A DNA stretch of 64,000 nucleotides from an uncultured Eudoraea sp. (GTDB lineage Bacteria; Bacteroidota; Bacteroidia; Flavobacteriales; Flavobacteriaceae), in NCBI GenBank assembly GCA_947258555.1, contig CAMYJF010000003.1, forward strand, positions 1-64,000, in the 5' to 3' direction. The notes under the pieces were generated by a model. That model searched no databases. It saw nothing but the letters and a program-made list of their open reading frames with translations, and had not been told where the DNA came from. Made by a program: the position numbers and the translations under genes. Positions 1-58,028 of the stretch are shown in pieces. Numbering within the stretch: position 1 is the first letter of the stretch; every line of letters starts with the position of its first letter.

Positions 1-1014
1 GCACAAGTCGCCACAAACACAACCGATATAGCTACGAACGTCACAGACATTGCTACGAACGCAACGGATATTGCTGCTCATGTGGCAGCCGACTTAGATG
101 TTGACAGCACAAACGAATTAAACTCAACGGTTGCCTTTGACGGTACAAACCTGACAGTGACGGATCCAGGCGGAAGTCTTTCTGCCGATATCTCTGGACT
201 GGCTTATGACGATTCTGCCATCCAGGCACAAGTGACCACAAACACAACCGATATAGCCACCAATGTTGCTGATATTGCGACAAACGTAACAGACATAGCA
301 ACTAATGCTACAGACATAGCTACCAATGCGACTGACATCGCTACCAACACAACTGATATTGCATCCAATGCTACGGACATTACCACCAATGCAACAGACA
401 TTGCAACGAACGCGACGGATATTGCTACCAACGCAACGGATATTGCCGCTCATGTGGCAGCCGATGGAGATCTTGATAGTACGAATGAAATTCAGACGCT
501 CTCAAAGGCTGGAAATACGATCACATTAAGTGATGGAGGTGGTTCAGTAAATGAAACCGTAACCTCTTTATCTCAGAATACAACAACTGGTGTAGTTACC
601 TATACCGATGAGGCCACTGGAACACAAACAGCCAATGTAGTTTCCACGAATACTGATAATGATATATCGGCTGGGACCGATGGCGGAGCATACTACAAGA
701 GTATGGTAAAAGCAATCGGCAAAATAAGTTCTGCAGGCGCTGTAGTTAGGGCTACAACCGGGATTACCGTTACTAAATTGACTGGAAATGGCCATTATCG
801 GGTAAACCTGCCCACGGGAATGGTGGCAGATGCGAACTACATCATTCACTTGTCTCAACCGAGTCGTAATGGTGCTGGAAATGATGACCCCGGGATTTCA
901 TATACCAATCAGACCTCAACGAGTTTCGAAGTGATAATAGGCGATAATGACAATGGGGGAACGAACCGAAATCGCTTTAATTCAGAATTCATGTTTATGA
1001 TTTTAAACCTCTAA
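1..1014 (+). CDS. Repeat-rich tail-fibre-like surface protein (5' end outside window)
   Basis: The reading frame is open from base 1 to the TAA at 1012-1014, so this is the C-terminal 337 residues of a longer protein. It holds two arrays of the seven-residue unit TNxTDIA (3 copies at 13-75, 10 copies at 238-447). Each array is preceded by QV and followed by AHVAAD...DSTNE. The regular I/V spacing and Asn/Thr content suggest a trimeric coiled coil or beta-helix stalk like those of phage tail fibres and trimeric adhesins; that is inference. A DSTNEIQTLS..GNTITLSDGGG module and a non-repetitive C-terminal head of about 110 residues follow. No T9SS sorting domain is visible at the C-terminus. The next gene starts 3 bases downstream and carries the same DxTNEIQ module, so the two are probably co-transcribed. 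The exact role is unknown. Confidence 0.7.
   Translation, partial: AQVATNTTDIATNVTDIATNATDIAAHVAADLDVDSTNELNSTVAFDGTNLTVTDPGGSLSADISGLAYDDSAIQAQVTTNTTDIATNVADIATNVTDIATNATDIATNATDIATNTTDIASNATDITTNATDIATNATDIATNATDIAAHVAADGDLDSTNEIQTLSKAGNTITLSDGGGSVNETVTSLSQNTTTGVVTYTDEATGTQTANVVSTNTDNDISAGTDGGAYYKSMVKAIGKISSAGAVVRATTGITVTKLTGNGHYRVNLPTGMVADANYIIHLSQPSRNGAGNDDPGISYTNQTSTSFEVIIGDNDNGGTNRNRFNSEFMFMILNL
13..75 (+). repeat. Tandem 21-bp repeat array, 3 units
   Basis: Three in-frame 21-bp units encode TNTTDIA, TNVTDIA and TNATDIA. The array is bounded by codons for QVA on the left and AHVAAD on the right, the same borders as the larger array at 238-447. Confidence 0.85.
238..447 (+). repeat. Tandem 21-bp repeat array, 10 units
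   Basis: Ten in-frame 21-bp units encode variants of TNxTDIA (x = T, V, A). Units differ mainly at synonymous or near-neutral positions. The flanks (about 226-237 and 448-480) closely match those of the array at 13-75, which indicates a duplicated module with a different number of units. Confidence 0.9.
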
Positions 1015-1017
1015 CCA

Positions 1018-1893
1018 ATGAAACGATTACTAATCATTATAACTGTATTGCTCATCCATATAGGAGTGTTTGCCCAGATCGATGCCAATTCATTAATGGG
1101 ATTGATTCATGCTACGACAGCGGAAATGACGGCCATAGTATCTCCGATAGAGGGATCATTGCTTTATAATACAACCGATAATGCTATTTACCAATATAAT
1201 GGTGTTTCATGGGGAATTGTTGGGCAAACCGGACCCGTAGGTCCACAAGGACCTCAAGGTATTCAGGGGATTCCAGGTGATCCTGCGACAGACGATCAAA
1301 CACTGGCAACAGACGGTACTTCAGGAAATATTTCAATTACCGGCGGTAATGGAATTTCACTTAATGTAAACGATGCAGACTCCGATCCTACGAACGAGAT
1401 TCAAAACTTGTCATTAGCAGGTAACGATCTAACAATTTCCAGCGGAAACACAATTACGTTAACCCCTTTGATCGACATAAATCTTGGAAAAGATGACCTG
1501 ATCCAAGATCCGGAATCCCGTACTTACGACATGAATGCCCAAGATCTGGGCTTTATTAATGGAAATGTGGGTATTGGTAATACAACACCCAACTCTATGC
1601 TTCAGATATCGGGTTCGGTATCTGCGCCTATTCGTTCAACAGCGATTAATACATCTTTGGGACCGAATGACTTCACGTTAATAACAACAGAAAAAGATCT
1701 TATCATTACGTTACCTGCGGCGAATACTTGCCAAGGAAGGCTTTACCTTATCAAAAATTTTGGAGGTGGGGACAATAATACCAATGTTTTGTATATAAAA
1801 AACAATGGCGATCTAGATAATAAAATAGACAATGACAATTTGACGTGGCTTCAAAGTGATGGAGTTAATTGGCATCAAATAAACAAGTTTTAA
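1018..1893 (+). CDS. Secreted collagen-like surface protein
   Basis: 291 aa with a clear signal peptide (about residues 1-19, ending GVFAQ). A short collagen-like Gly-X-Y stretch (GPVGPQGPQGIQGIPG) lies near residues 71-86. A DSDPTNEIQNLSLAGN module matches the one in the preceding gene. The C-terminal half includes a VGIGNTTPNSMLQISGS segment like those of tail-fibre-type repeat proteins of flavobacteria, and ends in INKF without a T9SS domain. The ATG follows the upstream stop by 3 bases. Likely a cell-surface or extracellular structural protein; no enzymatic motif is seen. Confidence 0.65.
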   Translation: MKRLLIIITVLLIHIGVFAQIDANSLMGLIHATTAEMTAIVSPIEGSLLYNTTDNAIYQYNGVSWGIVGQTGPVGPQGPQGIQGIPGDPATDDQTLATDGTSGNISITGGNGISLNVNDADSDPTNEIQNLSLAGNDLTISSGNTITLTPLIDINLGKDDLIQDPESRTYDMNAQDLGFINGNVGIGNTTPNSMLQISGSVSAPIRSTAINTSLGPNDFTLITTEKDLIITLPAANTCQGRLYLIKNFGGGDNNTNVLYIKNNGDLDNKIDNDNLTWLQSDGVNWHQINKF

Positions 1894-1976: not shown

Positions 1977-3155
1977 ATGATCAAGCTGGTAATAACAACA
2001 ATAAAGCATATCCATTTTTTCTGCATCCTGCTATTGATTAGTCCTTTAATGGCACAGAATGCCGTACACAATTTCGGCAACATCCAAATGCATGACGATG
2101 CTTTAGTAGCTTTTCATATTAACCTGATCAATGACGGTATTTTCTATGCAAATCTTGGGCTATGTGGTTTTTATAATACACAGAATGCTTTGACGATTTC
2201 TGGAACAAGTATTCCAGTTTTCTACGATGCCGAGATAATGGTAGATGATGGCCTTTACCTGGATATTGGAGTGGGTATACGAAACAACGCTAATTTTGTC
2301 AAGGGTAATGTTATGATAGCCAGATCAAACCCGTTAACATATATGAATTACGCCAATGATGCTTTTTATACAGGCCCCGATGATCCTAATAAAATAGACG
2401 GTTATGCCGGAATTACAAACAAGGAGTCTTTTGAATTTCCAATAGGCGATCTGAACCGTTTACGTCCTTTGGGTATTCAATCGATGGCGATTAATCCTGT
2501 GGCCAGTGCAGCATATTTTTTTGAAGATCCCAATGCGCCAAGCACATTTCCAATGGTGTTTGATACAAGTTTGAAAGTGGATGCTGATCTCACAATCAGT
2601 ACACGCGAATTTTGGCAGCTGACTAGTACCATTCCTTCGCAGGTTACCTTAAGTTGGGATGCGATGAGCCAGGTGAGCGAATTCATTGACGATATCTCAG
2701 AAATTCGTGTCATGGGATGGAATAAGGCACTCGATATTTGGATTGATCTCGGTAATACATCATATACCGGCGATATGAATAACGGCACTGTAACTTCGAG
2801 TGATTTTTTACCCGTGGATTATGAAATTATTACCCTGGGAGGAAATAAAGATAACACACCAGCAAATGTTATAAATCTAGGAAACTATTACCTGAGTCCG
2901 AATAGCGATGGCGTCAATGATACCCTTATCATTGAGAACTTGTTTCTCTCACCGAACAACACACTTCGTATCTACAACAGATATGGTGTTATGGTATATG
3001 AAATGGAAAATTATGACAACCAATTCGACGGCAAGTCTAACGTTAATATGGTGATTAAGCAACCTGATGGACTCGCAGCAGGTATCTACTTTTATACCAT
3101 CCAAATGCAGGATTTGAACGAGGAGCATCAAGGCTTCATGTACATATCTAATTAA
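1977..3155 (+). CDS. T9SS cargo protein with type B C-terminal sorting domain
   Basis: 392 aa. The start at 1977 is chosen because a signal peptide follows at once (hydrophobic FFCILLLISPLMAQ); an upstream in-frame TTG at 1869 would add a non-secretory leader overlapping the previous gene. The last 90 or so residues carry the gliding-motility-associated (CHU_C, TIGR04131-like) pattern: YYLSPNSDGVNDTLIIEN, LRIYNRYGVMVYE, and a final GIYFYTIQ...GFMYISN. By family knowledge this domain directs export through the type IX secretion system and surface attachment. The body has no recognised enzymatic domain. It probably belongs to the same surface-protein group as the two genes before it. Confidence 0.75.
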   Translation: MIKLVITTIKHIHFFCILLLISPLMAQNAVHNFGNIQMHDDALVAFHINLINDGIFYANLGLCGFYNTQNALTISGTSIPVFYDAEIMVDDGLYLDIGVGIRNNANFVKGNVMIARSNPLTYMNYANDAFYTGPDDPNKIDGYAGITNKESFEFPIGDLNRLRPLGIQSMAINPVASAAYFFEDPNAPSTFPMVFDTSLKVDADLTISTREFWQLTSTIPSQVTLSWDAMSQVSEFIDDISEIRVMGWNKALDIWIDLGNTSYTGDMNNGTVTSSDFLPVDYEIITLGGNKDNTPANVINLGNYYLSPNSDGVNDTLIIENLFLSPNNTLRIYNRYGVMVYEMENYDNQFDGKSNVNMVIKQPDGLAAGIYFYTIQMQDLNEEHQGFMYISN

Positions 3156-57882: not shown

Positions 57883-58028
57883 CTGAATCTCTTTTAAATT
57901 GCTTCCCTGGAATGTCCTAAGGAAAGATCTAAGATACAATGAAAATTGATTTGTTTAACTTTTTTAATATTTATTTAAACATTTTTAATAACTATGGACC
58001 ATGACTCAGATCCATGAATAACTTTTGT

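Follow-up and report, generated by a model that had tools for sequence, protein, structure and literature searches.

Heptad arrays in a probable fibre gene at a contig end

We analysed the first 64,000 nucleotides of contig CAMYJF010000003.1 from an uncultured Eudoraea sp. (assembly GCA_947258555.1; 2.73-Mb genome, 104 contigs); this whole stretch is called the window, and its base 1 is base 1 of the contig, C3 in our numbering. Because the window opens at a contig end, the open reading frame (ORF) at 1-1014 lacks its start and represents only the 3' portion of its gene, here gene 1. It contains 21-bp in-frame units, three in a first array and ten in a second, coding for NxTDIAT-type heptads, and is followed by a short fibre gene (gene 2) and by a gene for a CHU_C protein, the type B class of the type IX secretion system (T9SS) (Table 1). 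We consider it likely that the arrays are coiled-coil stalk segments, with asparagine at heptad position d (N@d), of a modular surface fibre of adjustable length, which is probably a trimer. The preliminary description of this DNA had recognised both modules with the same copy numbers, placing the arrays at 13-75 and 238-447, one codon before the limits used here.

Table 1. Features of the fibre locus in the window (all positions from base 1 of the window)
Feature	Position	Strand	Basis
Gene 1, 3' part of fibre gene	1..1014	+	Open ORF, 337 codons, start lost at contig end
Array 1, 3 N@d heptad units	16..78	+	Unit count; model helix 2-31
Right border AHVAADLDVDSTNE	76..117	+	Read from sequence; 107-bp match to second border
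Beta cassette between coils (LNSTVAFDGTNLTVTDPGGSLSADISGLAYDD...QV)	118..240	+	Model strands 43-46, 50-55, 58-63; 39/42 residues from TNELNS on common to relative L042
Array 2, 10 N@d heptad units	241..450	+	Unit count; model helix 72-154; 7 units in relative L033
Right border AHVAADGDLDSTNE	448..489	+	Read from sequence
Beta-rich linker ahead of tip	490..684	+	Model strands 166-212, low confidence past residue 190
C-terminal tip domain, phage tail-fibre-tip-like	685..1011	+	Homologue search, tip model, structural matches
Gene 2, short fibre	1018..1893	+	Related head, few collagen-like triplets, DxDxTNEIQ seam, other tip; collagen match (E 0.083) under the cut-off
T9SS type B (CHU_C) partner gene	1977..3155	+	CHU_C E 9.4e-25; TIGR04131 above cut-off; linkage; ATG start picked by eye

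Tandem Repeats Finder reported three 21-bp arrays (16-75, 253-407, 274-446) as well as a 63-bp period (298-440). Self-identity of positions 1-480 at a lag of 21 was 0.516; when the codons were shuffled 2000 times, the mean was 0.334 (standard deviation 0.021, maximum 0.414). Of all 210-bp stretches in the window, the 15 that score best at this lag start within 106-400. The borders of the two modules are alike as had been proposed, with a DNA identity of 81.5% over 65 bp on the left and 80.4% over 107 bp spanning the right border, but the similarity of the flanks does not extend beyond DSTNE, where the two visible modules continue differently (LNSTVAFDGT and IQTLSKAGN). Far from the arrays, two tandem AT-rich 21-bp copies at 57949-57990 are unlike the coil repeats.

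Asn, Asp and Ile are invariant in all 13 units, and the mean pairwise identity between units is 0.84, 0.945 and 0.35 at the first, second and third codon positions, respectively. As third positions are alike in only 35% of unit pairs while the three residues are kept, the protein has been held while the DNA drifted. This pattern, with synonymous sites saturated between units, points to an old, selected array that gets reshuffled and not to a recent expansion. Of the in-frame expansion or contraction that had been suggested for the arrays, the whole-unit changes are borne out in relatives, as described below.

The predicted coiled-coil stalk and its length among relatives

Each unit carries Ile at position a and Asn at position d, which by sequence is the N@d heptad of trimeric coiled coils; N@d layers and their anion binding are treated in PMC4786415 and PMC12933892. 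A sequence search of the PDB at E up to 1 returned three distinct matches, two fragments of SadA (E 0.00049 and 0.0027) and one of UspA1 (0.011). AlphaFold2, run on the 337 residues with an alignment of eight rows, gave a mean predicted local distance difference test score (pLDDT) of 72.4 and a predicted template modelling score (pTM) of 0.35, with helices at residues 2-31 and 72-154 that span the units (residues 6-26 and 81-150) with a few residues extra on each side; array 2 reached block pLDDT values of 88-97. Both arrays being helical in this model, they are predicted to be coiled coil and not beta-helix, the two folds between which the preliminary description had left the choice. Pfam matches to coiled-coil families, and a large NCBIfam match of relative L041 to SMC, reflect the coil only. 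Given the helix rise per residue, each heptad unit adds about 1 nm.

No run of five or more Gly-X-X triplets was found in gene 1, though relatives with the same tip have such triplets. Since the slot of the stalk accepts either collagen or an N@d coil, and collagen is a trimer, a trimeric fibre is favoured.

Next, we compared unit numbers between relatives; a unit was recognised as N followed four residues later by I or V, a set pattern by which odd units split arrays. Relative L033, a 3988-bp metagenome contig, has seven units in array 2 where the window has ten, which leaves a 63-bp gap in the alignment. In the stalk it is 79-93% identical to the window, depending on the region; elsewhere the identity is 99.5% at 490-690, 100% at 691-1017, 98.4% in gene 2 and 97.4% beyond. 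Differences thus occupy 53 of 403 aligned sites in the stalk (13%) versus 70 of 3511 in the surroundings (2%; Fisher p 6e-22), and the post-stalk stretch 490-1017 contains one difference in 528 positions, fewer than the DNA behind it. Synonymous and nonsynonymous codon changes number 26:7 at 25-339, 11:3 at 403-489 and 8:6 in gene 2. The raised synonymous divergence, limited to the stalk, suggests either that diverged modules were exchanged or that an assembler put another module here. This contig (JAHEJC010000522.1) is titled as part of a Lewinellaceae metagenome-assembled genome (Ww534), yet it is 97-100% identical to the window outside the stalk and is probably misbinned.

In L042, from a congener (G001), 29 units follow a cassette identical to that of the window at 39 of 42 residues. 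Among isolates, L044 and L047 are 98.2% identical over their N-terminal 600 bp, and their first arrays hold 25 and 22 units and their second arrays 8 and 13, the array gaps adding up to multiples of 21 bp. In relatives, a whole module is larger than the seven-residue unit, and mean cassette identity is 74-93%. Across the 19 genes examined, arrays hold 2 to 38 units each, and one complete gene contains 14 arrays with 158 units, so that further modules upstream, for which the preliminary description had advised a look at that part of the gene, do occur in complete relatives. These results support a stalk length that varies in frame by whole heptads between close relatives (10, 7 and 29 units; 25 and 22 units), in line with the length-variable stalk that the preliminary description had put forward, although the unit counts and the orthology of the arrays compared are not certain. 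Recombination between the many in-frame repeats would be the simplest process for such changes, slippage being another candidate.

The length changes could be real but neutral, the coil serving as a spacer that tolerates any number of heptads. The wide range of unit counts in these 19 genes would suit a spacer, and no phenotype of the changes is known. The protein sequence of the units is strongly kept against saturated synonymous change, from which it follows that the coil matters, though its length need not, and we regard neutrality as a serious possibility while leaning against it. We find it improbable, by comparison, that the differences are artefacts of short reads collapsing or expanding the repeats, with true counts that are perhaps equal. 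Assemblies do often break in the stalk, as contig ends cut 22 of 46 ORFs with the tip of gene 1 on their 5' side and, for 10 of 38 CHU_C homologues, the ORF upstream, and both L033 and the window start within it. Against such artefacts, the units can be told apart by their third codon positions, the differences come in whole units, and the pattern recurs in named isolates.

The tip domain and the proposed modular plan of the fibre

A search of 397 genomes of the family detected the tip of gene 1 (E up to 0.001) in 60, counting the genome of the window itself. We kept 46 ORFs with this tip, retaining redundancy and leaving out weaker matches. In 45 of them the tip ends at most six residues from the C-terminus, while L138 runs on for 123 residues; short partial matches occur further up some of the proteins. 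What stands ahead of the tip is variable, with more than 30 collagen triplets in 11 ORFs, at least four N@d heptads in 6, TTDKI-type repeats in 3 and none of the three in 26. Complete relatives (for example L041, L043, L044 and L049) contain an apparent signal peptide, judged by eye, a head, the modules and a tip, in that order; the head of L041 and L049 is of the QxKIGxNP...LELES type, and L043 and L044 start otherwise. This arrangement suggests a fibre in which a head is combined with a stalk (N@d coil, collagen or others) and a tip that can both be exchanged. As for the missing 5' part of gene 1, a search of the genome for the heptad pattern gave nine matches, all at C3:22-444, and a search with the head of L041 gave a single match (E 0.146) in gene 2; the only other clear relative of gene 1 in this genome lies on contig C46 (E 1.7e-8).

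Gene 2 illustrates the exchange that we propose, with a seam (DADSDPTNEIQNLSLAGN) similar to that of gene 1 and a different tip. In L042, a stalk of the gene 1 type joins a tip of the gene 2 type directly (66% identity over 206 residues), a CHU_C gene then follows, and the tip of gene 1 is absent from the genome at the limits of the search, the genome being 88% complete. The simplest reading of this sequence arrangement would be a deletion or swap at the seam, the alternative being a lost contig. Another common C-terminus (PDYVFQKYF...HLPGV...KIEELFLHTIEQEKKI...), ending in what looks like a predicted coil, is present in the fibres of L171, L179, L181, L182, L186 and L189, which adjoin the same CHU_C partner; that of L171 is without a clear Pfam match.

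The tip modelled alone (alignment of seven rows) reached a pLDDT of 77.6 and a pTM of 0.74; 59 structures predicted for viral proteins matched it with E no higher than 0.001. Among the 50 viral matches listed, the named ones include several tail fibres, and the best have template modelling (TM) scores of 0.65-0.74 to the tip model. Alignment to the PDB with VIA-align gave the tailspikes 5js4 (Z 8.5, root-mean-square deviation (rmsd) 3.4, 102 aligned) and 7eea (Z 8.1, rmsd 2.0, 71 aligned), and further H-type lectins (Z 6.4-6.8), pyocin fibres and BclA among others; Z values up to 8.5 are graded middling by the tool's own note, and unrelated folds come next at Z 4-5. No Pfam family matched the window's tip, while a Pfam search with 42 tips at E up to 0.01 returned three matches to Gp53-like_C, two to Phage_tail_C_2 and one each to Big_12 and Big_13. 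Searching PDB sequences with a profile of the tip gave a putative phage tail protein at E 0.018 and, at E 1.2, a spermidine synthase.

Gene 1 might then be the tail fibre of a prophage or tailocin, for which the fold of the tip, weak tail matches in PHROGs and N@d repeats in 75 viral contigs could be adduced. In its place, however, gene 1 is followed by gene 2, the CHU_C gene, VanY, M48 and gpmI, an order that recurs in relatives, and at the limits used the tip has no relative confirmed in the phage sequence collections that we searched; we judge a phage gene very improbable and unsupported. The PHROGs matches, weak ones to tail and head proteins, came from L041 as well as from genes 1 and 2 and in part involve the coil, and the phage record collection contained no match to the part from cassette to linker. 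The 75 viral contigs (L206-L280, from IMG/VR) encode relatives of the stalk, mostly N@d heptads, and proteobacterial and other matches were also found; with such a distribution, the heptad alone marks no family.

The CHU_C partner and comparison with known systems

With the partner protein as the sole query, homologues (E 1e-40) were found in 24 of 120 genomes, at 39 places including that in the window. Among the other 38, 24 start at most 450 bases behind a head-bearing fibre ORF and three more within 5 kb, in ten a contig end truncates the upstream ORF, and one (L180) had none in the stretch first fetched; at L180, a head-bearing fibre of 3259 residues lies about 4 kb upstream of the partner, past two other ORFs. 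A head-bearing fibre is thus upstream in 28 of the 28 homologues that could be judged (28 of 38 overall), as detected with a head profile of 13 sequences that contains members from some of the tested genomes and is tuned to the family. In the opposite direction, a full-length partner lies within 5 kb behind 34 of the 45 tip ORFs outside the window. VanY or M48 genes are present in 20 of the 31 partner loci fetched, as in the window.

The partner carries a C-terminal CHU_C/TIGR04131 domain, which is that of type B T9SS substrates, while gene 1, whose C-terminus is complete, contains no T9SS sorting domain. The genome encodes SprA, the pore of the T9SS, and has nine PorP/SprF matches, two of which are perhaps one broken gene: adjacent matches at 5911-6680 of contig C73 lie in different frames and jointly cover one profile, so that either a broken gene or a sequencing error may be at hand. 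Behind the Muricauda-type N@d fibres L043 and L044 come a CHU_C gene and then a PorP/SprF gene (Pfam checked for L043). The genome has a second fibre gene, unlike the first, on C46 (positions 1-5541 of L157); its repeats contain stretches of undetermined bases, and behind it lie a CHU_C gene, whose product has Ig-like domains, and a PorP/SprF gene. Two CarboxypepD_reg-like proteins are encoded on the opposite strand directly ahead of the fibre locus in L041 (6973-8494) and L118 (1-1387), one Pfam match being just below the cut-off.

Type B proteins are reported to bind PorP-like proteins at the cell surface (PMC9143113), and in F. johnsoniae three type B proteins without an adjoining shuttle gene share one shuttle; a fusion with one such C-terminal domain travelled along the cell in 3% of cells, while most foci did not move (PMC12618676). 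The literature that we searched, with most subscription papers outside it, held no description of this pair of fibre and CHU_C protein.

Our proposal is that the fibre would be exported by Sec and would then trimerise through its coil and tip, and that it would be displayed with the CHU_C protein, brought out by the T9SS and a PorP/SprF shuttle. In the chain, beta cassettes lie between the coils and the tail-fibre-like tip comes last; a gain or loss of heptads would change its reach and leave frame and coil intact and the register undisturbed. Adhesion, with surface display through the CHU_C partner, is probably its role. As a possible but rather doubtful extension, a mosaic fibre of Flavobacteriaceae with its own head and no T9SS signal may dock on a dedicated type B carrier and so be displayed by the T9SS in trans, the PorP/SprF shuttle bringing the carrier to the surface, perhaps to the gliding track; the phage-like tip and both the type and the length of the stalk would be exchanged at conserved seams (AHVAADxDxDSTNE, DxDxTNEIQ), such that reach and specificity evolve independently.

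Several points weigh against the modular fibre as a whole. Its support is computational throughout. The models are of monomers and cannot show a trimer. The window's own head and signal peptide lie outside the available sequence, and L033 and the window are both short-read metagenome contigs starting in the stalk, in which unlike modules may have been joined by the assembler. With the tip, Foldseek returned nothing from the PDB at E 0.001, and by sequence a search of 50,697 phage records at E 0.01 gave no relative, nor was any confirmed in viral_contigs. Finally, seven of the 45 tip ORFs have a partial match behind them, mostly to the CHU_C domain, and four have none within 5 kb.

An ordinary trimeric autotransporter adhesin (TAA, type Vc) stalk on a YadA-type anchor is hardly tenable and was rejected for gene 1, for although the closest PDB sequences are TAA stalks and the N@d coil is present (13 of 13 units, PDB matches and helices), the complete C-terminus, searched at E up to 1, does not match YadA and is a tail-fibre-like domain instead, and the genome, of which about 5% is unassembled, gave no YadA_anchor match, while the control set was found in E. 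coli.

The modular fibre that we favour links the T9SS with N@d coils of autotransporters and with phage-type fibre tips. Should the CHU_C partner carry it, one could understand how long fibres of Bacteroidota that have no outer-membrane anchor themselves reach the cell surface, and type B proteins without an adjoining shuttle gene would gain a function. The heptad array is in addition a natural ruler, with which effects of stalk length can be tested directly.

Among known systems, the TAA stalks of SadA and UspA1 share with this fibre the tandem IxxNxxD heptads and the alternation of coils with beta elements; theirs have a YadA anchor, whereas here there is none and the polarity is reversed, with an N-terminal head and a C-terminal tail-fibre-like tip in complete relatives. 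Periscope Proteins are surface rods whose length is set by the in-frame number of repeats (PMC9704523), a number that also varies here between close relatives (10, 7 and 29; 25 and 22, with the assembly caveat given above), but their repeats are folded domains of more than 50 residues and high identity, while the varying unit here is a seven-residue coil in a probable trimer. The type B proteins Fjoh_1123, Fjoh_1720 and Fjoh_4934, which have no adjoining shuttle gene (PMC12618676), resemble the partner in their CHU_C/TIGR04131 domain and in the absence of sprF-like neighbours, a likeness of domain and context, and differ from the fibre, which is without this domain. The mosaic adhesive trimers (MAT) that Bdellovibrio, a bacterium, encodes resemble phage fibres and carry diverse C-terminal tips (PMC10769870). 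They belong to another phylum, and gene 1 differs from them in having no S74 domain, in the N@d or collagen stalks of its kind and in its linkage to a T9SS protein. Like them, the fibre ends in a phage-fibre-like tip, for which the PDB matches are middling (MAT structure 8onf against the tip: Z 4.1, rmsd 4.5, 91 aligned), and by analogy the MAT appear to be, in idea, the closest to the fibre.
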